Source: Martelella radicis (GTDB taxonomy: Bacteria > Pseudomonadota > Alphaproteobacteria > Rhizobiales > Rhizobiaceae). Taken from it: DNA of 64,000 bases. Under the pieces are notes generated by a model, which searched no databases, had not been told where the DNA came from, and worked only from the letters and a program-made list of their open reading frames with translations. The position numbers and the translations under genes are program-made. Each line of letters starts with the position of its first letter. The stretch's first letter is position 1. This document shows positions 20,824-32,930 of the stretch, in pieces. The stretch covers positions 62,001 to 126,000 of the forward strand of contig NZ_JACIDZ010000007.1 in assembly GCF_014196625.1 (NCBI RefSeq). The letters are read 5' to 3'.

Positions 20824-20856
20824 CGAATATCATTCGACGCGAATGAATGCTATACT
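20824..20856 (+). promoter_or_regulatory. Overlapping inverted repeats and -10 box before the sulfatase maturase
   Basis: TCATTCG-ACG-CGAATGA (20830-20846) is a 17-base palindrome, overlapped by CGAAT-ATC-ATTCG (20824-20836). TATACT follows at 20851-20856, about 90 bases before the start codon. This looks like an operator over a promoter; the regulator is unknown. Confidence 0.5.
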
Positions 20857-20945: not shown

Positions 20946-22220
20946 ATGACCTTGGCGCAGACCCATTCTTCCGAACAGCGTTCCGGCCCGGAACTGGAGG
21001 CCGCTGGATTTGTGGCCAAAGGCCAGACCCATCGTTTTCACGCGATGATCAAGCCCTCCGGAGCCCAGTGCAATCTCGACTGCACCTATTGTTTTTATCT
21101 GCACAAGGAAGGCCTGCTGCACCAGCCCAAGGCGCCACGCATGAGCGACGAGGTGCTCGAGCAGCATATCCGCCAGTATATCGAGGCGCAGGATGGAGAC
21201 GAGGTCGTCTTCAGCTGGCAGGGTGGCGAGCCGACCCTGATGGGCCTGCCGTTCTTCGAGAAGGTCGTCGCGCTTCAGCGCCGTTACGCCAAACAGGGCC
21301 AGCGCATCGAGAACGACCTGCAGACCAATGGCATCCTTCTTGACGAGAAATGGTGCCGCTTTCTCAAGACGGAAGGCTTCCTCGTCGGGCTGTCGATCGA
21401 CGGACCGGAACATCTGCATGACCGCTACCGCGTGAACAAAGCCGGCCGGCCGACCTTCGAGCGCGTCGTCGCCGCCGCGAAGATGCTGCGCGACCACGAG
21501 GTTCCTTTCAGCGCGCTCTGCGTCGTAAACAACGCAAATGCCGAGGAGCCGCTTGCGGTCTATCGTTTTCTTCGCGACGAGATCAGACCGCGAATGATCC
21601 AGTTCATACCCGGCATGGAGAAGAAGGACTTCTTCAAGACCGCGCCGCATCACTGGGACAGAAAACGCCTGCCGCGAGAGAACGCGCGGGCCGCCCGTCC
21701 CGGCCACCCCAATTCGGCGGTCGCTGAATGGTCGGTAAGCCCGGAACAGTGGGGACGTTTCCTGACGACCATCTGGGATGAATGGGAGCGCAATGACTAC
21801 GGCCGCGTGTTTGTCGACCAGTTCGAGAATATCCTGTCTATGCTGCTTGGACAGGGCTCACAGCAATGCGTGACGAGCCGCATCTGCGGAAAGGCGCTGG
21901 CCGTCGAACACAATGGCGATGTCTATAGCTGCGACCACTTCGTTTATCCTGAATTCAAGATCGGCAACCTGCTTGAACGTCACGAGGGCAACCTCGCATT
22001 CGGCGAGCAGCAGCTCAATTTCGGCTTCGACAAATCGCGAAACCTGCCCGGAAAATGCCGGCAATGTCGTTACCTGCAGCTTTGCTGGGGACACTGTCCG
22101 AAGGATCGGTTTCTGAAAACGAAGGACGGAGAGGCCGGTCTTCACTACCTCTGCCACGGCCTGCAACATTTCTATGGCCACGTGATCCAAGCCTGCGACA
22201 GGCTGGCGCGCGGCGGCTGA
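20946..22220 (+). CDS. Anaerobic-type sulfatase-maturating radical SAM enzyme (anSME)
   Basis: This 424-residue protein converts the active-site Ser or Cys of sulfatases into formylglycine, in the cytosol, before export. The radical SAM cluster motif CNLDCTYC (Cys42, Cys46, Cys49) is followed by FSWQGGEPTLMG and LQTNGILLDEKW. The C-terminal SPASM region holds the auxiliary cluster cysteines (SRICGKALAVEHNGDVYSCD, then CRQCRYLQLCWGHCPKDRF). The length and order match anSME/AtsB. The ATG at 20946 follows GGCGGAGAC; a longer reading frame begins upstream but has no good site. The two sulfatase genes nearby are its evident substrates. Confidence 0.93.
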   Translation: MTLAQTHSSEQRSGPELEAAGFVAKGQTHRFHAMIKPSGAQCNLDCTYCFYLHKEGLLHQPKAPRMSDEVLEQHIRQYIEAQDGDEVVFSWQGGEPTLMGLPFFEKVVALQRRYAKQGQRIENDLQTNGILLDEKWCRFLKTEGFLVGLSIDGPEHLHDRYRVNKAGRPTFERVVAAAKMLRDHEVPFSALCVVNNANAEEPLAVYRFLRDEIRPRMIQFIPGMEKKDFFKTAPHHWDRKRLPRENARAARPGHPNSAVAEWSVSPEQWGRFLTTIWDEWERNDYGRVFVDQFENILSMLLGQGSQQCVTSRICGKALAVEHNGDVYSCDHFVYPEFKIGNLLERHEGNLAFGEQQLNFGFDKSRNLPGKCRQCRYLQLCWGHCPKDRFLKTKDGEAGLHYLCHGLQHFYGHVIQACDRLARGG

Positions 22221-22260
22221 CAGGCACAAGCCCGGTCCGACCGCCCTCGCCGCGCTCGGT

Positions 22261-23226
22261 TCAGAATGGAAACGAGACGCTCAGATAGCCGCTTGTGCCC
22301 TCCAGCCGGTTCTTCGCATCGAATTCGCGATAGATCTTGGCACGAAGGGAGACCGGCGTTTTGCCGGCATTGAAATTATAGCCAACCGTGGCGCCCAGGG
22401 CGGCCACACGTCCCTTGAAATCTCCGAGCGATGCGCCTGGTCCGCTGTCGCCGGTTACCTGTTGATAGTAGTAGCCGACAATTCCGGCCGAGAATTGGGA
22501 CGCGAATGTCTTCGTCACGGCGCCCTCGAAATGGAGCTCGGTTCCCGTGACATAATCGGTTTCGGGGTTCTCTCCGTTGAAGGTCACGCCCGCCGCGCCC
22601 GAGGCCTCCCAGCCGGTAAGCGGATCAAGCCAGGTCACCGCCGCGTTCAGATCCGCGCCCCAGCGGTGGAACGCGATATTGGCGACCTCTCCTTTCTGAT
22701 AGTCGCCGATCGGCACGTTGACGAGCGTTCCGGCCATCCAGTGCCAGTTGCCGGAATGCCAGCCAAGACTCGCGCCGATCACAGGATCGCCGATGGAAAA
22801 GATATCGTCACTGATGGACGCGCCAATACCCCCGCCGGCGGACACCGCCGACGCATCGACATTCTGGTAGCCCCAGGGCAAGGTGACCGTCAGTCCCAGA
22901 TTGCCGCCGGCGATCTCTTCCGGAAGAACCCAGAGGCCAGTTGCAAGATCGATGACCGCGGTCGCGTCGATATTTGCGATGACCTGCCCTCCGGCCGGAA
23001 GATCGGCACTGGCCCCGGCGGAGCCCGCGTAGAAATAGATGTCGTTTGCCAGATAGCTTCCGGGCGGCGCAAGAACGCCGGCCATCGGGCCCCTGGACCC
23101 CAGGAGATAAAAGCCCGTGCCCGCTTCGGCCGCCTGCGTCGACGCGCCACCCCCGGCGAATGTCAGCACGCCCGCAAGACCGACGAGCCCGCTACGGAGC
23201 AGTGTAGCCCGAAATTGCTGCATCAT
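22261..23226 (-). CDS. Outer-membrane beta-barrel protein, SphA/phenol MetA-type
   Basis: The 321-residue protein has a signal peptide (about residues 1-34, ending ASTQAAEA) and alternating beta-strand sequence to the end, closing with SVSFPF, a terminal phenylalanine typical of outer-membrane barrels. GSYLANDIYFYAGSAG, GASLGWHSGNWHWMAGTLVNVPIGDY and AATVGYNFNAGK-like strands match the family annotated as transporter or MetA-pathway of phenol degradation, which takes up poorly diffusible compounds. The start at 23226 is the second of two adjacent ATGs after GCAGGG. It is followed by a frameshifted relative on the same strand upstream. Confidence 0.75.
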   Translation of the reverse strand: MMQQFRATLLRSGLVGLAGVLTFAGGGASTQAAEAGTGFYLLGSRGPMAGVLAPPGSYLANDIYFYAGSAGASADLPAGGQVIANIDATAVIDLATGLWVLPEEIAGGNLGLTVTLPWGYQNVDASAVSAGGGIGASISDDIFSIGDPVIGASLGWHSGNWHWMAGTLVNVPIGDYQKGEVANIAFHRWGADLNAAVTWLDPLTGWEASGAAGVTFNGENPETDYVTGTELHFEGAVTKTFASQFSAGIVGYYYQQVTGDSGPGASLGDFKGRVAALGATVGYNFNAGKTPVSLRAKIYREFDAKNRLEGTSGYLSVSFPF

Positions 23227-23296
23227 CCCTGCCCTGCCTTTTTTTGCGAAATCCAATTCAAATGGCGCCTCGACACCGGGACACTCGCGCGATGCG

Positions 23297-24095
23297 TCAC
23301 TTGGGAAACACGAAATTCATCACGAAGCGCGCTCCGAAACCGCCTGGCCCGCCTGCCGGGCTTTCCGCCCAGTATCGCAGCCCAACCTGGAAATTGACGG
23401 GCTGGTCGCCAAGGACGACGAGCTTCCCGACCGTCGCGTTGACCGGCACGGCCCAACTGTCGGCCAGCCAGTCGTAGGTGGTTTCGGTATTGAGCCCGAA
23501 CGACCATGCGCTCTCGGTCGTGTATGTCAGAAAGGGCTGAAGAAAAGTCGCGTTGACATCCCTCCGCGCATCGTCCCCGGCGAAGGACCAGATGTGGTTG
23601 GCAAGAATACCGACCGTCCAGGGGCCGGTAATATCGAGCACGGCCGCAGTCGGCCCGGCGCCCCATTTGCTAAGGCCCATGAGATCGTCTGTCGCCGTCG
23701 GGTAGAGAAAAACCGGTCCGGCACCCCATGTAATGCCGCTTTCGGACGGATCCTTCGGCGACAGAAAAAAGCTCTGGACCGTGTCGCCCAAGCCGAACTG
23801 GGTGCCCGACCTGCCGGCGGTTTCCCGCTGCCAGGTAACCGGCACGATCGTCCGCGTGATCAGGTTCCAATCGTCATTCAGGGAGAAGGGGACAACCGGC
23901 TGTATGTTGAGGGTAGCCCGATCGCCCCCCCGCACTGCCGATGCTGCCGTCATAATTGAACTGCAATGGTACGCTGATCAGGTTGGCGACCGGATTGCTG
24001 AGCTGCTTGGCCAGTTCCTCATTATCCTCGGCACGCGCGCAGATCGCGGCCGACAGCAGCGCAAGCGTGGCGCAGGCAACACAGCTCTTCTTCAT
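23297..24095 (-). pseudogene. Outer-membrane protein of the LAKQLSNPV family, broken by one base in a C run
   Basis: The N-terminal 70 codons give a signal peptide (MKKSCVACATLALLSAAICARA) and EELAKQLSNPVANLISVPLQ, and a second frame continues RATLNIQPVVPFSLNDDWNL through to NFVFPK. These two halves match a single outer-membrane family of about 270 residues (often mis-named neuromedin U). The switch falls at a run of seven C bases (23925-23931 on the given strand, seven G in the mRNA); six would restore the frame. It may be a true pseudogene, a phase-variable switch or a sequencing error. GGAGGG precedes the ATG at 24095. Confidence 0.85.
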
Positions 24096-24216
24096 GCGAA
24101 AACCCTCCGGTCGCACGGCAAGTTCGGTTTTATGTTTCTAAAGGCGATATCACGCCGGATGGCCGCTGGATCGGCGCCATCCGGTCAAAAGTACACAAAG
24201 CAGGCCAGTCGCCAGC

Positions 24217-25896
24217 CTATTGAAGGCCGCTGCTGAGGTAATCCTCTATGAGGTTCGACATGTCGAACGATGCCCCACCCTGGACCGGCGGGTATTGCGC
24301 AAGCGACGCCAGATGCTGCTCGATCAGCGCGCCCATTGGCTGCACCAGCCAGGATACCTTCTGCATGAGATGGCCATAGGCATCGACGGAATCGTAACTC
24401 TCGAACGGATCCATTCTGAGATTGAAGACCAGAGGCGCCGTTCTTGGAACAAGGTTGGCGTAATAATCCTCCTTGGTCGAGAAATGGAACTTCCACGGGC
24501 CCATGCGCACGGCGGTCAGATCGCTCTCGTAATAATGGAAGATGTGATCGCGCGCGGAGTGATCGCTCTCGCCAGTCCAGTAAGGCAGGTTGTTTTCCCC
24601 GTCGATATACTGGCTCTTTTCCTCCAGCATCATGGCTTTCACGTCCTCGACACCGGCTGCTGCCGCGAGTGATGTAAACATGTCCTGATGTGCCTGGATG
24701 CCGTTGAGGATCTGACCCGCAGGAACGACGCCGGGCCATCGCAACATGGAAAGCACCCTCACACCGCCCTCATAGGTGGTCATCTTCTCGCCGCGGAACG
24801 GCGTGGTGCCGCCATGCGGCCAGGAACTGTGCTCCGGCCCGTTATCGGTCGAATACCAGACGATCGTGTTGTCGCTCAGGCCGTTGTCATCGAGCCAGTC
24901 GAGAATGACGCCGACATCATGGTCATGCTGCAGCATGCCTGATCCGTACATATCCGCCTCGGAGGTATATTCCTCCGCGGCATAGCGCCATTCCTCGTTG
25001 AGCCGCGTGTAGAGATGCATGCGGCTGGTATTGATCCATACGAAGAAGGGCTCGTCCGCATCCACCGCGGCCGACATGAAGTCGATGGCGCGCGGAATGA
25101 CCTCGGCCCCATCGAAGTTCTTCATCCGCTCCTGCGTCAACGGCCCGGTATCCTCGATCGTCTGCTTGCCAATCCGGCCGAAACGCGGCTGCTCGGTCGG
25201 GTCGTCATAGTCAGTTGCCTTCGAATGCAGGACGCCGCGCGTTCCGAAGCGCTCTTCGTAATCCTCGAGGCTGCCCGAGAAGGCTTCGCCGAAGCGCTGG
25301 TAATCGCGTTGTTCGGCCTCTTCCTGCGTGTTGAGATGGTAGAGATTGCCGAAGAACTCGTCGAACCCGTGAGCGGTCGGCAAATGCTCGTTGCGGTCGC
25401 CGAGATGATTTTTGCCGAACTGTCCTGTGCGATAGCCCGCGCCCTTCATGACCGCGGCGAGACTGGGTGAAGCGGCCTGAAGTCCGAGCGCCGAACCCGG
25501 CTGCCCGACGGTCGTCATGCCTGAACGGATCGGGTATTGCCCCGTAATGAAGGCTGCTCTACCGGCTGTGGAACTCGGCTGAGCGTAATGATCGGTGAAA
25601 CGAATGCCTTCATTGCCGATGCGGTCAATATTCGGCGTCCAATAGCCCATCGTCCCCATGCCATAGGCGGAGACATTCTGCCATCCGATGTCATCGCCCC
25701 AGATGACAAGGATGTTCGGCCGCCTTGCGGTTGCAGGCTGCTGCGCTCGCGCCCGGCCGGGCCCGGCGACGGTCGCCGTCGTCGCGATCGTGGTAAAAGC
25801 CGCCAGCACGCTTGAACTCAAGAGCAGGTTCCGGCGGGTCACCCCACCGGTCGCGCCGGTCGTTTCCTGTGCGTCATCATGGGCATCGTCATCCAT
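24217..25896 (-). CDS. Tat-exported sulfatase with serine at the formylglycine site
   Basis: The 559-residue protein is an arylsulfatase-like enzyme of the alkaline phosphatase superfamily. [21 protein letters not shown] provides metal ligands. The modification site reads SSTAGR (Ser109 in place of Cys, then T-A-G-R113), which can be read by an anSME but not by an aerobic FGE. The N-terminus has a twin-arginine signal ([15 protein letters not shown], Arg21-Arg22). [12 protein letters not shown]-type metal and substrate residues lie in the middle ([14 protein letters not shown]). It should act in the periplasm on a sulfate ester. It faces the ABC-sulfatase operon across an AT-rich region. Confidence 0.9.
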
Positions 25897-26462
25897 TCCA
25901 GCCTCCCTAGCCCCGCCTTACGGCAGGTGGAAAAGAACAATTGATGCACTGCGTAATTTGATTAAATCTTAGAAAACGAAGGACACTCTAACATATTTTT
26001 GCAAAAACAAAAACCTCTAACAATATTTTTCCAAACTCAACTAATGGTTTTGCATATCATATAAATAAAACTTCCTTTTCCGTTCATGTTTTACCGTTTT
26101 ATTCATTCTTCTATCTCAAAAATCGCAAGCACAAACCAAAATAGTCTCAACCTTTTTTTCGCCGCCCGAAAAACCGCATGATTGCGAGAGGTATTGGGCT
26201 CTTGCCGGCCCCAGGTGACGGCATCAATCAGATGCGGATCGGACCAACGCCTCACCAAAAAAAGCAGATGCGCACCGCCGCCACGCGCTGTGCGGAAGGC
26301 TCTCGCCCGGCGAGGCGAGGGCGCGCAGATATGTAAACGAACGTTGACCTTCAGAAACCCGAACGGTCTCTTGACTCATCGCTAGTAAAACTTTACTAAA
26401 ACTTACCAGGAGGCGCTGAAGGGTTCGTGGAGGGACCCGAGGCGAAACGGGAGAAACATATA
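25897..26462. promoter_or_regulatory. AT-rich divergent promoter region of the sulfatase locus
   Basis: No gene is seen in these 566 bases. From about 25920 to 26160 the sequence is strikingly AT-rich compared with both neighbours. It contains a direct repeat (CTCTAACATATTTTTGCAAA at 25986-26005 and a near copy at 26015-26035), a short hairpin TTTTTCG/CGAAAAA (26155-26173), and near the right end a TTGACT box and an inverted repeat. Promoters for both directions are probably here. Confidence 0.65.
26371..26398 (+). promoter_or_regulatory. TTGACT -35 box overlapping a TAGTAAA inverted repeat
   Basis: TTGACT (26371-26376) resembles a -35 box and is followed by TAGTAAA-AC-TTTACTA (26383-26398), a 7-base inverted repeat covering the -10 position. 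The LacI-type regulator encoded at the end of the downstream operon is a candidate to bind it. Confidence 0.45.
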
Positions 26463-27521
26463 ATGGCCGAGATCGAGCTCCGCCAATTGCGAAAGTCTTA
26501 TGGGGCTTTCGAGGCTATACCGCCTATCGACCTAAAGATCGGCGATGGCGAGTTCTGCATTTTCGTCGGCCCGTCCGGATGCGGCAAATCAACGCTTTTG
26601 AGAACCATTGCGGGCCTTGAGGATGCGAGCGCCGGCGAGATCATGATCGGCGGTGAAGAAGTCAGCCAACGCCATCCGGGCGAGCGCGGCGCGGCCATGG
26701 TTTTTCAAAATTACGCGCTCTACCCCCACATGACCGTGCGTCAGAACATGGGCTATGCGTTGAAGATCGCGAAAAGACCCAAGGACGAGATCAGGACCAC
26801 GGTCGAACGGGCGGCCCACACGCTCGGCCTGGAAGATTTGCTTGAGCGCAAGCCGTCGGAACTTTCCGGCGGCCAGCGGCAGCGTGTGGCGATCGGGCGC
26901 GCGATCGTCAGGGATCCGAAGGTCTTCCTGTTCGATGAACCGCTCTCCAACCTCGATGCCGAGCTCAGGACGCGTATGCGCCTCGAGCTTGCCGATCTTC
27001 ACCGCACGCTCGGCGTCACCATGGTCTACGTGACGCATGACCAGGTCGAGGCGATGACGCTCGCCGACCGGATTGTCGTATTACGATCAGGCCGGATCGA
27101 GCAGGTCGGGTCGCCGCTGGAACTCTATGACAATCCGGACAACCTGTTTGTCGCCCGCTTCATCGGTTCGCCTTCGATGAACTTTCTCAAGGCGGAGGCC
27201 GCCGACGGCGAAATCTGCCTGAGCGAGATACAGGGCCCGCCGCTGCCCCGGCCGGAATTCGTTCCCTCTGACTGGCGCGGGCTTCTGGGCGTAAGGCCCG
27301 AACATTTCGAGCTTCGCGCAGGTGGAATGGAGATCCGCCTGCGCGCTGTCGAACATCTGGGCGGCGTGACCTACGGCTATGCCACGCTGCCGGGTGGAAC
27401 GGAACTGTGCGTCGATCTTCAGGGCCATAGGGAGATGGCTGCCGGAGATACCGTGGCGCTCGGCATTCCGTCGGAACGTGCATTCTTCTTCGACCAGAAA
27501 ACGGAGAAACGTCTCCGGTAA
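26463..27521 (+). CDS. Sugar ABC transporter ATP-binding protein (UgpC/MalK-type)
   Basis: The 352-residue ATPase has Walker A GPSGCGKST, Q-loop FQNYALYPHMT, signature LSGGQRQRVAIGRAIV and Walker B VFLFDEPLSNLDAELR, then the regulatory domain (LLGVRPEHFELRAGGMEI). It is the first gene of the operon running to 32930. The ATG at 26463 follows CGGGAGAAACATATA; an in-frame GTG 12 codons earlier is less suitable. With the next three genes it forms a CUT1 importer. Confidence 0.93.
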   Translation: MAEIELRQLRKSYGAFEAIPPIDLKIGDGEFCIFVGPSGCGKSTLLRTIAGLEDASAGEIMIGGEEVSQRHPGERGAAMVFQNYALYPHMTVRQNMGYALKIAKRPKDEIRTTVERAAHTLGLEDLLERKPSELSGGQRQRVAIGRAIVRDPKVFLFDEPLSNLDAELRTRMRLELADLHRTLGVTMVYVTHDQVEAMTLADRIVVLRSGRIEQVGSPLELYDNPDNLFVARFIGSPSMNFLKAEAADGEICLSEIQGPPLPRPEFVPSDWRGLLGVRPEHFELRAGGMEIRLRAVEHLGGVTYGYATLPGGTELCVDLQGHREMAAGDTVALGIPSERAFFFDQKTEKRLR

Positions 27522-27542
27522 CTTTCAGCACGGGAGGATTAA

Positions 27543-28787
27543 ATGCTGAAATCGATACTGAAGGGCAGTGCCGCGACGCTGCTTGCGTCAGGCATCTTGG
27601 CGGCGTCGGCGAGCGCCGAGGAAATCCGCATCTATTTCAATGCCGGCCACGGCTATGACACCTATCTCGAGGTCTTCGAGGAATTCGAGGCTGACAATCC
27701 CGGCTGGACGGTCGCCTTCGAGCGCTATCAGTGGCCGGACCTGCGCACCAAGCTGGTGGCCGATTTCGCCGCCGGCAACCCGCCTGATCTCGTTGCGGAG
27801 CCCGGCGCCTGGGTGCCGGAATTCGCCCAGCAGGGCCTTCTCTACAATCTTGATGACCTTGCCGCGCGCGACCGGGCCGAATTCGACTATCCCGGCGATT
27901 GGCAGGACGCTTCCGTCGAGAAGAACACCGTCGATGGCTCACTCTACGGGGTACAGATTCATCTCACCTGTGCGACGCTGCTCTACAATGTCGACATGCT
28001 GAAAGAGGCCGGTTTCGACAACCCGCCGGCTAATTGGTCGGAGTTCCGCGAGATTGCCAAGGCAACGACCAAGAACGGTGTCTTCGGCTTCGCGCCCAAC
28101 GCCGTCTGGGCCTATTCCATGCCCTGGGTCTTCCAGAATGGCGGGCAGTATTACAATTCCGAAACCGGCAAGATAGCCTTCGGCAGCGTGGCGGCGGCAG
28201 AAGGCGTGCAATTTCTTTCCGACCTGATCCACGAGGATCGCTCCGCGCCAGTCCCGGTTACGGGGGCCGATTACGAGGGGCCGCAGCGCCTCTTTACCGC
28301 CGGCCGCGCGGCGATGATCATCACCGGTCCCTGGGACATCAATCCCATCCGCACCGGCAATCCCAACCTCAACTGGGCTGTCGCGCCGTCGCTGAAAGAG
28401 GTCGAACAGGCCACCATCCAGGGCGGCGTCAGCCTGATGATCCCCAAGGACGCGCAGTATCCCGAACAGGCCTGGGACCTGATCAAGCGCCTGACCGCCG
28501 TTGATGTCGAAGTCGCCACCTCGCTCAAATACTCGATGACGATGCCGCGGAAGTCCTGGCTTGAGGACCCGCAAGTGCAGGCCGACCCGATTCTCGGCCA
28601 GTTTGGCGCGTGCCTTCCCTATTCACGCGATGTCACGCTCGAACTGCGCAAGGCCGGCAAATACAATCCTGCCATCGATGAGGTGCTGAACGGCGCAATC
28701 GATGAGGTGCTGTTTGCCAACGAACCGGCCGCAGAGGTTCTTTCCGCCGCTGAAGATGAAGCGAACGCCATTCTTGCCGACGAGTGA
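27543..28787 (+). CDS. Sugar ABC transporter substrate-binding protein
   Basis: The 414-residue protein has a signal peptide (MLKSILKGSAATLLASGILAASASA) and a family-1 solute-binding fold: EEIRIYFNAGHGYDTYLEVF, NLDDLAARDRAEFDYPGDWQ, TLLYNVDMLKEAGFDNPPAN and GRAAMIITGPWDINP. GGGAGG lies before the ATG. It is followed by a strong hairpin and the two permease genes. From the sulfatases in the same locus a sulfated sugar ligand is likely, but this is inference. Confidence 0.92.
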   Translation: MLKSILKGSAATLLASGILAASASAEEIRIYFNAGHGYDTYLEVFEEFEADNPGWTVAFERYQWPDLRTKLVADFAAGNPPDLVAEPGAWVPEFAQQGLLYNLDDLAARDRAEFDYPGDWQDASVEKNTVDGSLYGVQIHLTCATLLYNVDMLKEAGFDNPPANWSEFREIAKATTKNGVFGFAPNAVWAYSMPWVFQNGGQYYNSETGKIAFGSVAAAEGVQFLSDLIHEDRSAPVPVTGADYEGPQRLFTAGRAAMIITGPWDINPIRTGNPNLNWAVAPSLKEVEQATIQGGVSLMIPKDAQYPEQAWDLIKRLTAVDVEVATSLKYSMTMPRKSWLEDPQVQADPILGQFGACLPYSRDVTLELRKAGKYNPAIDEVLNGAIDEVLFANEPAAEVLSAAEDEANAILADE

Positions 28788-28795
28788 GCAGATCC

Positions 28796-28824
28796 ATGCC
28801 CCGGCTCAAGCAGAGCCGGGGCAT
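28796..28824 (+). other. 12-bp hairpin after the binding-protein gene
   Basis: ATGCCCCGGCTC (28796-28807) and GAGCCGGGGCAT (28813-28824) pair perfectly around AAGCA, directly after the binding-protein stop and before the permease start. No T run follows, so read-through with message stabilisation is more likely than full termination. Confidence 0.65.
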
Positions 28825-28849
28825 ACCGCCTTTAACCGGGAATGACGGG

Positions 28850-29728
28850 ATGACTTACAAAACCAAGCGCACCTTGACCGCCTATGCCTTTCTGTCGCCG
28901 GCCATCGTTTATTTCCTGATCTATTTCTTCTGGCCGATCGCGATAGAATTCTGGGCGAGTTTCAGAAGCGGCCAGCCCCTGATCGGCGAATCAGCCTTCA
29001 TCGGACTGAAAAACTACGCCCATATCCTGAACGATCGGCTGGCGATCAAGGCGATCAAGGCAACGCTGATCTATGCGATCGGCAGCGTCGTCTTCACCCT
29101 GGTGCTGGCCCTCGGGCTTTCGGCCCTTCTGGTCGGTCCGGTTAGAGCGCGCAACGCCATCCGCGCGATCCTGTTTTTTCCCTACATCATTTCCTTTGTC
29201 ATCTCGGCACTAATGTGGCGGGCGATCCTCGACCCCTATACCGGGCTGCTCAACGCCGCGCTTGCCAAAGTCGGACTTCCGCAACAATTCTGGCTGGTCA
29301 ATCCGGATACGGCGATCTGGACGCTGATCGCGGTCTCGGTTTGGAAAGATCTCGGTTATGCCGTGCTGATCTATATCGCGGCGATACAGGGCATTCCCGC
29401 GCATCTCTACGAAGCCGCGCGCATGGATGGCGCCAAGCGTCATCACCTTTTCCGCGACATCACCCTGCCGCTTCTGATGCCAACCACGCTGTTTCTCGCC
29501 GTCGTCATCATGATCGCATCGCTGCAGGAAATGGCCCTGCCTTACCTGATGACCCAGGGCGGCCCGGCCAACGCCACGCGGCTTTATTCGCTCCATGTCT
29601 ACGAGACGGCGTTTCAGGGCCTCAACATCGGCTACGCCTCGGCTCTTTCCTTCGCGATGTTCATGCTGATCCTGTTCATCACATGGGCCCAGTTCAAACT
29701 GCTTCACCGCGATATCAGGCACGTATGA
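28850..29728 (+). CDS. Sugar ABC transporter permease (MalF-type)
   Basis: The 292-residue permease starts MTYKTKRTLTAYAFLSPAIV and has about six membrane segments. The coupling loop is YEAARMDGAKRHHLFRDITLP. The ATG at 28850 starts the recognisable family region; an ATG at 28784 would add a stretch made by the hairpin and is unlikely. It overlaps nothing and is followed by the second permease gene after 7 bases. Confidence 0.9.
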   Translation: MTYKTKRTLTAYAFLSPAIVYFLIYFFWPIAIEFWASFRSGQPLIGESAFIGLKNYAHILNDRLAIKAIKATLIYAIGSVVFTLVLALGLSALLVGPVRARNAIRAILFFPYIISFVISALMWRAILDPYTGLLNAALAKVGLPQQFWLVNPDTAIWTLIAVSVWKDLGYAVLIYIAAIQGIPAHLYEAARMDGAKRHHLFRDITLPLLMPTTLFLAVVIMIASLQEMALPYLMTQGGPANATRLYSLHVYETAFQGLNIGYASALSFAMFMLILFITWAQFKLLHRDIRHV

Positions 29729-29735
29729 GGACGAC

Positions 29736-30569
29736 ATGGCTCGCAAGGACACCCACACCACGCCATCGAAACTGCTGATCTATCCGCTGCTAGCCTTCTT
29801 CGTGCTGATGGCAGTGCTGCCCTTTCTCTACATGGTCTCGCTGTCGCTGCAGAGCGATGCCGACATGTTTTCCGGTCAGGTCGTCGTCATCCCGGAAGTC
29901 CTGCAGTTCTCGAATTATGTCACGATCTGGGAAAAGGCGCCCTTTGCCCGTTTCATGCTCAATTCGGTGATCATCGCCGGCACGATCACGCTTCTGCATG
30001 TTCTGTTCGATCCGTTGATCGGATATGTCTTCGCCAAGATGGAGTTTCCCGGAAAGCGGTTCATGTTTGTTTCGCTGCTGGCGACGCTGATGATCCCCTT
30101 CTTCATCCGGCTGATCCCGCTTTACGTGATGACCGCCGAAATGGGGCTGCTCAACACCTATCCGGGCCTGATCCTGCCCTTCGCCATGAGCGCATTCGGC
30201 ATTTTCCTGATGCGCCAGTTCATCATGCCGATCCCGGACGATCTGGTGGCCGCCGCCCGTCTCGACGGGGCGAGCGAATTCCGGATCTTCGTCGACATCG
30301 TCCTGCCGCAGCTCAAGCCTGCGATCGCGACGCTGGCGCTCTTGACCTTCGTCTTCCAGTTCAACGAGTTCATCTGGCCCCTCGTCGCCGTCTCATCGGA
30401 GAACATGCGGCCGATCACCACCGGGCTCACGCTTTTCAACCAGGAATTCTTTACCCAATGGAATCTCACAGCCGTGGGCGGCATGCTCCTGTTTCTGCCC
30501 TGCTTCCTCCTCTTCGTCATCATGCAGCGCTATTTCGTCCAGAGCGTGATGCTTTCGGGCATGAAGTGA
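29736..30569 (+). CDS. Sugar ABC transporter permease (MalG-type)
   Basis: The 277-residue permease has a short lead (MARKDTHTTPSK), a first helix LLIYPLLAFFVLMAVLPFLYM and the coupling loop VAAARLDGASEFRIFVDIVLP. GAGGAC precedes the start. It completes the importer and is followed after 10 bases by the cytoplasmic sulfatase gene, so transport and desulfation are co-expressed. Confidence 0.93.
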   Translation: MARKDTHTTPSKLLIYPLLAFFVLMAVLPFLYMVSLSLQSDADMFSGQVVVIPEVLQFSNYVTIWEKAPFARFMLNSVIIAGTITLLHVLFDPLIGYVFAKMEFPGKRFMFVSLLATLMIPFFIRLIPLYVMTAEMGLLNTYPGLILPFAMSAFGIFLMRQFIMPIPDDLVAAARLDGASEFRIFVDIVLPQLKPAIATLALLTFVFQFNEFIWPLVAVSSENMRPITTGLTLFNQEFFTQWNLTAVGGMLLFLPCFLLFVIMQRYFVQSVMLSGMK

Positions 30570-30579
30570 GGAGGGGAGC

Positions 30580-31869
30580 ATGACGAAACGACCGAATGTT
30601 CTGGTGTTCTTCACCGACCAGCAGCGCTGGGATACGGTGGGCGCCCACAACAACCCGCTGGACCTGACGCCGAATTTCGACCGGATGGCCGAAATGGGCC
30701 GCTTCATCCGCAACTCCTTCACCTGTCAACCTGTGTGCGGACCGGCCCGCTCGGCATTCCAGACCGGAAAATATCCGACGACGACGGGCTGTTATCGCAA
30801 CGATATTCCGCTGCCGGAAGGCGAAAAGACGCTTGCGCATTATTTCGGCGAGGCCGGCTACGAAACCGGCTATATCGGCAAATGGCATCTGGCCGGAGGC
30901 GATCCCGTGCCGCGCGACCAGCAGGGCGGTTATGATTACTGGCTCGCCGCGAACATTCTCGAATTCACCTCATGGCCCTATCAGACCGATCTATTTGACG
31001 GCGAGGGAGAACGTCACCGGTTGCCGGGCTATCGGGTCGATGCGCTGACGGACGCGGCGATACGCTATCTCGACCAAAAACGGGAGAAACCCTTTTTCCT
31101 GTTCCTCTCCTTTCTGGAGCCGCACCACCAGAACCAGCACGACAATTACCCGGCGCCCGTCGGCTATGCGGACAGGATCGCCAAGCGCATCAGTTCCTAT
31201 CCCGACGATCTTGAGACGCTGGGCGGCACGACCCGGCAACACTACCACGGCTATATGGGAATGGTCGCACGGCTTGATGAGGCGTTCGGGCGCGTCATCG
31301 ACGCGCTGATCTCGCTTGGCGAGCTCGACAATACCATCATCCTGTTTTCGTCCGACCATGGCTGCCATTTCAAGACCCGCAATGACGAGTACAAGCGCTC
31401 CGGCCACGAGGCCTCTATCCGGGTGCCGACCCTTATTGCCGGCCCGGGGCTGAACGGAGGCGGAGAGATTACCCGCGCCGCTTCCCTGATCGACCTGCCG
31501 CCGACGCTGCTGGATGCCGCCGGCATCGATGTACCTGCAGAGATGCAGGGATATTCGCTGTTGCGGCCCGACGGGTTGCCCGAAGACGAAGTATTCATAC
31601 AGATCAGCGAAAGTCAGGTCGGCCGTGCGCTCAGATCCGGCAAATGGAAATACTGCGTTGCCGATCCGGCAGCCGATAGCTGGAACGACAGCGCCAGCCG
31701 GAGCTATACAGAGACCCACCTCTACGACCTCGACCGCGACCCCGCAGAGCTCGACAATCTCGTCGCCGCGCCGGAATATGCCGAACTTCGCGCTCTGCTG
31801 GCAAAACGACTTTCCGCGCGTATAATCGCCGCCGGCGAGGAGCCGGCCGAGATCGTTCCGGCGGATTGA
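30580..31869 (+). CDS. Cytoplasmic sulfatase, cysteine type
   Basis: The 429-residue sulfatase shows RPNVLVFFTDQQRWDTVGAH and the formylglycine motif CGPAR (Cys53 to Arg57) in VCGPARSAFQTGKYPTTTG. FSSDHGCHFKTRNDEYKRS gives the other metal and substrate ligands. There is no signal peptide, so it should act in the cytosol on a substrate brought in by the ABC importer encoded just upstream. GAGGGG precedes the ATG. Related proteins act on choline-sulfate, heparan-type or other sulfated sugars; the exact ester cannot be read here. Cys-type sites are accepted by anSME enzymes. Confidence 0.92.
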   Translation: MTKRPNVLVFFTDQQRWDTVGAHNNPLDLTPNFDRMAEMGRFIRNSFTCQPVCGPARSAFQTGKYPTTTGCYRNDIPLPEGEKTLAHYFGEAGYETGYIGKWHLAGGDPVPRDQQGGYDYWLAANILEFTSWPYQTDLFDGEGERHRLPGYRVDALTDAAIRYLDQKREKPFFLFLSFLEPHHQNQHDNYPAPVGYADRIAKRISSYPDDLETLGGTTRQHYHGYMGMVARLDEAFGRVIDALISLGELDNTIILFSSDHGCHFKTRNDEYKRSGHEASIRVPTLIAGPGLNGGGEITRAASLIDLPPTLLDAAGIDVPAEMQGYSLLRPDGLPEDEVFIQISESQVGRALRSGKWKYCVADPAADSWNDSASRSYTETHLYDLDRDPAELDNLVAAPEYAELRALLAKRLSARIIAAGEEPAEIVPAD

Positions 31870-31895
31870 CGGGTAGAGTGTAACAGGATGCACGC

Positions 31896-32930
31896 ATGGT
31901 AACACTGAAGGAGATCGCAAAGCGGACGGGAGTGGCTGAATCGACGATCTCGCGCATCCTCAATCGCGATCCGACCCTGTCGATTTCCGATGAAAAGCGT
32001 CGTCGCGTGGTGGAGACGGCCGAGGCGCTTCAATACGTAATGCGCCGGTCGCGAAGCAACCGCAAGGAAGACGCGTCGATCGCCCTGCGGCGTCCATCCG
32101 ACCTCAAGTCGGTCATGATCGTGCATTTTCTTTCAAGCGCGTCCGAGCTCTCGCAGCCCTTCTATGTTGGTCTGCGACAGGGTATCGAAGCGCGCTGCGA
32201 GGCCTATGGCATGGCAACGACGCGGCTCTTTGCCGGCGAATTCGACCCGGCGATGCTCAACCGCGCCCGCAATGTCGGCGTGATTTCGGTCGGCGATCTG
32301 CCCGCCGGCCAGCTTGAGGCTATCCGCTCGCTCGGCGTGCCGATTGTTCTCGCTCATCCTGATGAGAAACCGGTTGACGTCGATGTCGTCTATGTCGATC
32401 TGGAGGCGGCATCCGCCCGGCTTTGCGAATGGCTGCTGACACGCGGCATCCGGCGCCCTGCCCTTGTCGGCGCCAAGGACGCAACATCGAGGCGGCTTGC
32501 AGCCTTCCGATCGGTGATGAGCGCGGCAGGGATCTTTGATCCGGACTATGTGTCTTACGGAAACGACGTTACCGCTGACGGACAGGCCCATATCAGGGAA
32601 CTGGTCACGCGGCTTTCCAGGGCAGGCAAGCCCCTGCCCGACGCGGTCGTCATCTATGCCGACCGCACCGCCGTCGAGGTCTATCGCGGACTTGAGGAGG
32701 CAAAGCTTTCAATCCCGCGCGACGTCCAGGTCGTCGCCTTCAACGACAGCTCGATCGCCCGTATGCTGGCGCCCAAGCTTTCCACGCTGCGCCTGGAGGC
32801 CGGCGTCATCGGCGAAACCTCCGTCGACCTGCTGATGGAACGGCATGGCGGACGCAAGGCCGCAAAACATGTTCAGATCATGCCGACGATCATCGAGCGC
32901 GGCAGCACGCGCAAGCCACAAGCCTCCTGA
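31896..32930 (+). CDS. LacI family transcriptional regulator
   Basis: The 344-residue protein has the LacI helix-turn-helix (VTLKEIAKRTGVAESTISRI) and a periplasmic-binding-like ligand domain (VMIVHFLSSASELSQPFYVG, VIYADRTAVEVYRG, RDVQVVAFNDSSIARMLAPK). It is the last gene of the sulfatase-transporter operon, 26 bases after the sulfatase stop. It probably represses its own operon in the absence of the imported sugar; the inverted repeat at 26383-26398 is a candidate site. Confidence 0.9.
   Translation: MVTLKEIAKRTGVAESTISRILNRDPTLSISDEKRRRVVETAEALQYVMRRSRSNRKEDASIALRRPSDLKSVMIVHFLSSASELSQPFYVGLRQGIEARCEAYGMATTRLFAGEFDPAMLNRARNVGVISVGDLPAGQLEAIRSLGVPIVLAHPDEKPVDVDVVYVDLEAASARLCEWLLTRGIRRPALVGAKDATSRRLAAFRSVMSAAGIFDPDYVSYGNDVTADGQAHIRELVTRLSRAGKPLPDAVVIYADRTAVEVYRGLEEAKLSIPRDVQVVAFNDSSIARMLAPKLSTLRLEAGVIGETSVDLLMERHGGRKAAKHVQIMPTIIERGSTRKPQAS

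Follow-up and report, generated by a model that had tools for sequence, protein, structure and literature searches.

Gene content of the window

The subject of this report is a gene for an anaerobic sulfatase-maturating enzyme (anSME) and the two sulfatase genes that lie close to it in a 64,000-nucleotide stretch of the 4.99 Mb genome of Martelella radicis (contig C7, positions 62001-126000; hereafter, the window). One sulfatase has serine and the other cysteine at the predicted formylglycine site. A preliminary description of this DNA had noted the three genes, and we found all of them where it had placed them. The features of the region are as follows (L numbers denote loci and G numbers genomes; aa, amino acids).

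20946..22220, plus strand: anSME of the radical SAM/SPASM kind (TIGR03942 above cut-off; matches the solved anSME 4k37; cysteines present)
22261..23256, minus strand: Phenol_MetA_deg family protein, presumably of the outer membrane (PF13557, 195 bits; relatives in L184 and L016)
23297..24095, minus strand: frameshifted module gene without a Pfam family (L184 has an intact relative of 269 aa; the upstream start was read by eye)
24217..25896, minus strand: Ser-type sulfatase, exported, with a twin-arginine signal read by eye (PF00884 and PF14707; relatives in 80 loci)
25570..25572, minus strand: Ser109 codon TCC, predicted formylglycine precursor (TGC or TGT in the Cys relatives read)
25917..26426, no strand: spacer between two divergent units (base composition)
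26427..27521, plus strand: UgpC/MalK-type ATP-binding cassette (ABC) ATPase (alternative start possible at 26463)
27543..28787, plus strand: sugar-type solute-binding protein (profile matches)
28784..29728, plus strand: first ABC permease (profile matches)
29736..30569, plus strand: second ABC permease (profile matches)
30580..31869, plus strand: cytosolic sulfatase of the Cys type (PF00884 and PF16347), with the codon of Cys53 at 30736
31896..32930, plus strand: LacI-type regulator, sixth and last gene of the operon (gene order conserved in L176-L179)

The anSME gene encodes 424 aa, and an upstream ATG at 20847 is likewise open. Scanned from there, its product scores 483.5 bits against TIGR03942 (cut-off 349.45); it also matches the SPASM family PF13186 (29.6 bits, cut-off 21.5) and carries a CX3CX2C motif (C42, C46 and C49), with more cysteines in its C-terminal part. 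The Ser-type sulfatase (559 aa; PF00884, 161.2 bits, together with Sulfatase_C) has an intact frame close to its relatives, and its site, QPSSTAGR with Ser109, conforms to the pattern [CS]-x-[PA]-x-R (STAGR). The preliminary description had considered the A-G-R context an oddity for a serine enzyme, a view we rejected because Cys members of the same family read SCTAGR and the sulfatase pattern itself allows alanine, which replaces proline in 369 of 4058 sequences according to PMC5066984. The best solved relative by sequence is PsFucS1 (PDB 7AJ0; aligned over residues 55-539, 196.7 bits), which differs in being distant, in having Cys in the alignment, and in being a fucoidan-active member of SulfAtlas family S1_13, as reported in PMC9096561.

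The Cys-type sulfatase (429 aa; PF00884, 194.9 bits) has no signal peptide by eye, and its site, QPVCGPAR with Cys53, meets the same pattern (CGPAR). Its gene is the fifth of six in a sugar-type ABC operon, after those for a UgpC-like ATPase, a binding protein and two permeases and before that for LacI; the preliminary description had already noted its place in a sugar ABC operon. Cys-type sulfatases are reported to be typically cytosolic and Ser-type ones periplasmic (PMC3920027), a division that the two sulfatases of the window fit.

The spacer, whose part from 25917 to 26200 has 34.9% G+C as compared to 62% for the window, separates the Ser-type sulfatase from the divergent ABC operon. Because two minus-strand genes, that of the Phenol_MetA_deg protein and the frameshifted gene adjoining the sulfatase, intervene between the Ser-type sulfatase and the anSME, the latter two are convergent and do not share an operon. 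The pairing of an exported Ser-type sulfatase with a nearby anSME gene recalls Klebsiella AtsA/AtsB, a Ser-type arylsulfatase and its iron-sulfur maturase, which are named in reference titles of PMC5066984 and PMC3920027. The window differs from it in the S-T-A-G-R motif, the twin-arginine translocation (Tat) signal and the presence of a formylglycine-generating enzyme (FGE) in the same genome. In contrast to the one-operon arrangement of AtsA/AtsB, which is known from a reference title, the window genes lie on opposite strands with two genes between them.

Site residue and maturases among relatives

Relatives of the Ser-type sulfatase were collected from one genome per species (84,980 species scanned), and the best 80 of 571 were kept. 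Among these, 72 have Cys and 6 have Ser at the site, and 2 sequences (L083 and L086) do not cover it; the residue of L082 was read with a looser motif rule than the others. The six Ser forms come from two Martelella genomes, a member of the Desulfobulbaceae, Shewanella, Stenotrophomonas acidaminiphila (L075) and Acinetobacter. A full anSME (TIGR03942 above cut-off) was present in 6 of 6 Ser genomes vs. 3 of 69 Cys genomes (Fisher p = 4e-7), in a whole-genome count that covered 77 of the 80 genomes (L040, L048 and L074 were left out) and excluded the two genomes of unknown residue, one of which, that of L086, carries a full anSME. Pieces of an anSME occur in two more Cys genomes (G022 and G014); scoring them as positive gives 5 of 69 and p = 2e-6. 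As a background, 20 of the 398 genomes of a phylum sample have a full anSME. The same pattern was found in the flanking DNA, of which up to 10 kb, and for many loci less, was examined: an anSME lies beside 3 of the 6 Ser loci but beside none of the 72 Cys loci (p = 2.6e-4), and FGE-like genes lie beside 0 of 6 Ser and 9 of 72 Cys loci. Together with the nearness of the two genes, this restriction of Ser, among the relatives read, to genomes that have an anSME gives good comparative support to the earlier proposal that the window anSME is the maturase of the Ser-type sulfatase.

The converse does not hold. Of 31 anSMEs from 19 additional genomes in the phylum sample, 12 had a Ser-type sulfatase within ∼6 kb, 9 had a Cys-type one, 1 had one whose site could not be read and 9 had none, and we accordingly rejected the notion that every anSME neighbour is Ser-type. 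The rule is one-way: Ser implies anSME, while anSME does not imply Ser. The phylum sample, in which the best 3 candidates per genome were scored and 26 genomes had relatives at E ≤1e-130, yielded no further Ser forms; the 25 readable of its 28 new loci were all Cys, with L165-L167 unreadable. A lower frequency of FGEs in Ser genomes was likewise unsupported: two of the six Ser genomes and 24 of the 41 Cys genomes have a match of at least 200 bits (Fisher p = 0.39; this count excludes 30 genomes examined for anSME only), a good FGE candidate at that threshold being absent from four of the six Ser genomes searched.

Two other loci deserve mention. In Novosphingobium ST904 (G014, L227), whose genome also has Cys forms, a broken anSME lies beside a broken Ser-type STAGR sulfatase, a decaying sulfatase/anSME pair. 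An Acinetobacter contig (L089) has two Ser-type sulfatases from different branches around one anSME, with another anSME piece at the contig end.

The residue has changed repeatedly. A quick tree of 92 sequences, built with the site residue masked, calls for 6 Cys/Ser changes, all forced by supported branches, and a tree of 132 sequences requires at least 8; in the latter, 5 of 14 Ser rows were found via anSME neighbours, so it is usable for counting changes only, and long branches are flagged in both. When six independent pairs were compared (82 of the 92 rows, the remainder lacking a maturase search), a mean of 5.3 differed in the same direction, 0 in the opposite direction and 0.7 showed no difference (median p = 0.06). 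Within Martelella, the copy of G059 is Cys and is split over two frames (L106/L114), and the other three are Ser, the codons TGC and TCC differing by one base. The N-terminal part of the G059 copy groups with the Martelella Ser copies (97/97), and the three Ser copies fall inside (88/83). Within the family of the Ser-type sulfatase, Cys with FGE and Ser with anSME have probably replaced each other more than once.

In G059 (L184), a different Ser-type sulfatase (42%) is surrounded by counterparts of both module genes (74% and 86% identity) and by an anSME 76% identical to that of the window. A third kind of Ser-type sulfatase, with the site SSTPGR, accompanies window-type anSMEs at two places in G052 and also in G055, the two genes being separated by a gap or by a single HAD-family gene; the relative of this sulfatase in the M. 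radicis genome is Cys-type (SCTPGR). In Jiella endophytica (L016), an FGE gene and the Cys form of the window's Ser-type sulfatase (77%) adjoin counterparts of the module genes (34% and 60%), so the module is the same as in the window, with Cys rather than Ser and FGE rather than anSME. The frameshifted module gene of the window breaks near a run of C at ∼23927, leaving a downstream frame of 218 aa (23297-23953) that is 86% identical to the intact relative in L184; the frameshift may be either a sequencing error or real. An outer-membrane label for this gene was dropped, as neither it nor two relatives have any Pfam match.

Maturases of the genome and the Cys-type operon

The M. radicis genome offers more than one maturase. 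Two anSMEs score above the TIGR03942 cut-off, that of the window and one on contig C3; they share 48% identity and fall into separate groups of an anSME tree from which 4 of 15 intended loci were left out by a motif rule. The 19 kb surrounding the C3 gene yielded no sulfatase. This second, solitary anSME (L093, 8744-10066) has a C-terminal Cys-rich CPCGSGLKYKHCC tail, and in G059 (L185, 8409-10667) the gene for an FGE lies next to, and divergent from, that for an anSME more similar to the C3 type (63%). The FGE family PF03781 has two matches in the M. radicis genome, on contigs C6 and C8. The C6 product reaches 284 bits against solved FGEs and carries GGSFLCHISYCYRYR; like bacterial and human FGEs it has the LCHxSYCxRYR stretch, and nothing there appears to forbid function. 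Both cysteines of the SYC stretch, which belong to the FGE active site, are present. The C8 protein is without the GGSFLCHISYCYRYR stretch and was excluded from the count of FGEs. The genome encodes eight PF00884 sulfatases, seven Cys-type and one, that of the window, Ser-type, and no anSME was found within 19-kb stretches around the six sulfatases outside the window.

Six of 151 relatives (five Martelella and G560) have the Cys-type sulfatase at E ≤1e-80. In the four other Martelella genomes (L176-L179) the six-gene order of its operon is conserved, with neither an anSME nor the Ser-type sulfatase in the 19 kb read around it. In G560, of another genus of the same family, a gene of the FGE family (272 bits) follows the relative of the Cys-type sulfatase (L180). 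Conversely, the Ser-type sulfatase occurs without the operon in L181 and L182. The units therefore part in relatives, contrary to the single joint locus that had been proposed. An FGE serving the Cys-type sulfatase is a possibility that the preliminary description had itself raised against its shared maturase; the FGE gene exists, and its service to this enzyme is what we infer. The maturation of a Cys-type sulfatase of Shinella is credited to FGE in PMC11500405.

Two probable units, their proposed maturation and its meaning

We conclude that the window probably holds two separate, adjacent units: a Ser-type sulfatase with its own anSME, and an ABC operon whose Cys-type sulfatase is matured mainly by the C6 FGE. 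This reading draws on gene content, the site residue, the association with anSME, the tree and the conserved neighbourhoods, from which the conversion of Ser109, the maturase of the Cys enzyme, the locations and the substrates are predicted. The first unit (20946-25896) would comprise the exported sulfatase, the Phenol_MetA_deg protein, the second module gene and the anSME, which would oxidise Ser109 to formylglycine in the cytosol; the matured sulfatase would then be exported by Tat and desulfate some compound in the periplasm. The second unit (26427-32930) would take up a substrate on which the cytosolic Cys-type sulfatase acts after uptake, this enzyme being matured mainly by the C6 FGE and possibly, at low oxygen, by anSME as well. 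The earlier suggestion that one sulfatase acts in the periplasm before uptake and the other in the cytosol after it agrees with the signals of the two proteins, although nothing was found that links their substrates.

Several observations weigh against this reading. Each of the five Martelella genomes encoding the Cys-type sulfatase has an anSME as well as an FGE, so the presence of maturases cannot tell which acts on it. The Ser form of G052 and G055 lacks an adjoining anSME, the anSME lying elsewhere in the genome (the G055 contig ends just past the Ser-type sulfatase gene), and the pair test by itself misses 0.05. The link between Cys and FGE is less complete than that between Ser and anSME: G011, G017, G020 and G031 (L020, L026, L030 and L044), all Cys, have neither a PF03781 match nor a full anSME. 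Since, in addition, 17 of 41 Cys genomes are without an FGE match of 200 bits, another or undetected maturation route may exist. Lastly, Cys-type sulfatases do lie near anSME genes, making up 9 of the 21 readable cases vs. 12 Ser; two of the nine are SCTAGR proteins (L214 and L217). A third anSME of G052 (L188, 7053-10458) also adjoins a Cys-type sulfatase, one with a twin-arginine signal by eye.

These neighbouring Cys-type sulfatases speak for the proposal of the preliminary description, in which the window anSME matures both sulfatases and these act one after the other on a single sulfated carbohydrate, as do the nearness of the genes and reports that, while FGE takes Cys, anSMEs take Ser or Cys (PMC3920027, PMC6388578). 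However, the genome encodes, besides a second anSME, an FGE that has the active-site Cys stretch, the operon is conserved without anSME or Ser-type sulfatase in four congeners and is followed by an FGE-family gene at its relative in L180, and the module in L184 and L016 has the Phenol_MetA_deg protein but not this ABC operon. We have thus rejected one maturase for both sulfatases, which now seems unlikely. That Ser109 stays unconverted, leaving an inactive enzyme or one with residual activity from a plain serine, is very unlikely: an active Ser-type sulfatase without an obvious maturase is described for E. coli, with residual activity as one of two explanations and a third, unidentified maturation system suspected (PMC8379841), but the frame in the window is intact and close to its relatives, and, of the genomes read, those with Ser all bear an anSME, with Ser-type enzymes repeatedly near anSME genes. 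It would be more surprising still, and we consider it highly improbable, if the C3 anSME or a system yet to be recognised did the maturation and the window anSME acted on something else. The C3 enzyme is above cut-off and belongs to a different group from the window anSME, but has no sulfatase in the surrounding 19 kb, whereas window-type anSMEs in the genus lie near Ser-type sulfatases in 5 of 5 places read.

The components of both units are of known kinds. Of 4058 sulfatases, 78.9% were Cys-type and 21.1% Ser-type, and the latter are said in PMC5066984 to be restricted to facultative or strict anaerobes. The Ser-type sulfatase and anSME of S. acidaminiphila (L075), strictly aerobic by the title of its description in the reference list of PMC5966563, run counter to the exclusion of Ser-type enzymes from strict aerobes. 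M. soudanensis is described as strictly aerobic (PMC8401316), and PMC8055630 mentions neither aerobic nor anaerobic growth for M. alba. We found no paper on Martelella and sulfatases, nor one on a repeated, maturase-tied Cys/Ser exchange within one sulfatase family, in a search that covered subscription journals thinly. Tentatively, the site residue may be an evolutionary switch that has been used repeatedly, in which one base would move the enzyme from the oxygen-using FGE to the oxygen-sensitive anSME and confine its activity to low oxygen, including in aerobes that retain an FGE, with modules swapping maturase and residue together; this is possible but doubtful, and its oxygen part is opposed by a set with seven sulfatase-rich anaerobes in which 5 of 2040 sulfatases were Ser-type (PMC6388578).

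We know of no settled reason for the existence of Ser-type sulfatases. The Martelella Ser copies and the Cys copy of G059 (a split gene), and the modules of the window and of Jiella, provide natural pairs whose main differences are the residue and the maturase, and such matched pairs make the question of why Ser-type sulfatases exist a testable one.

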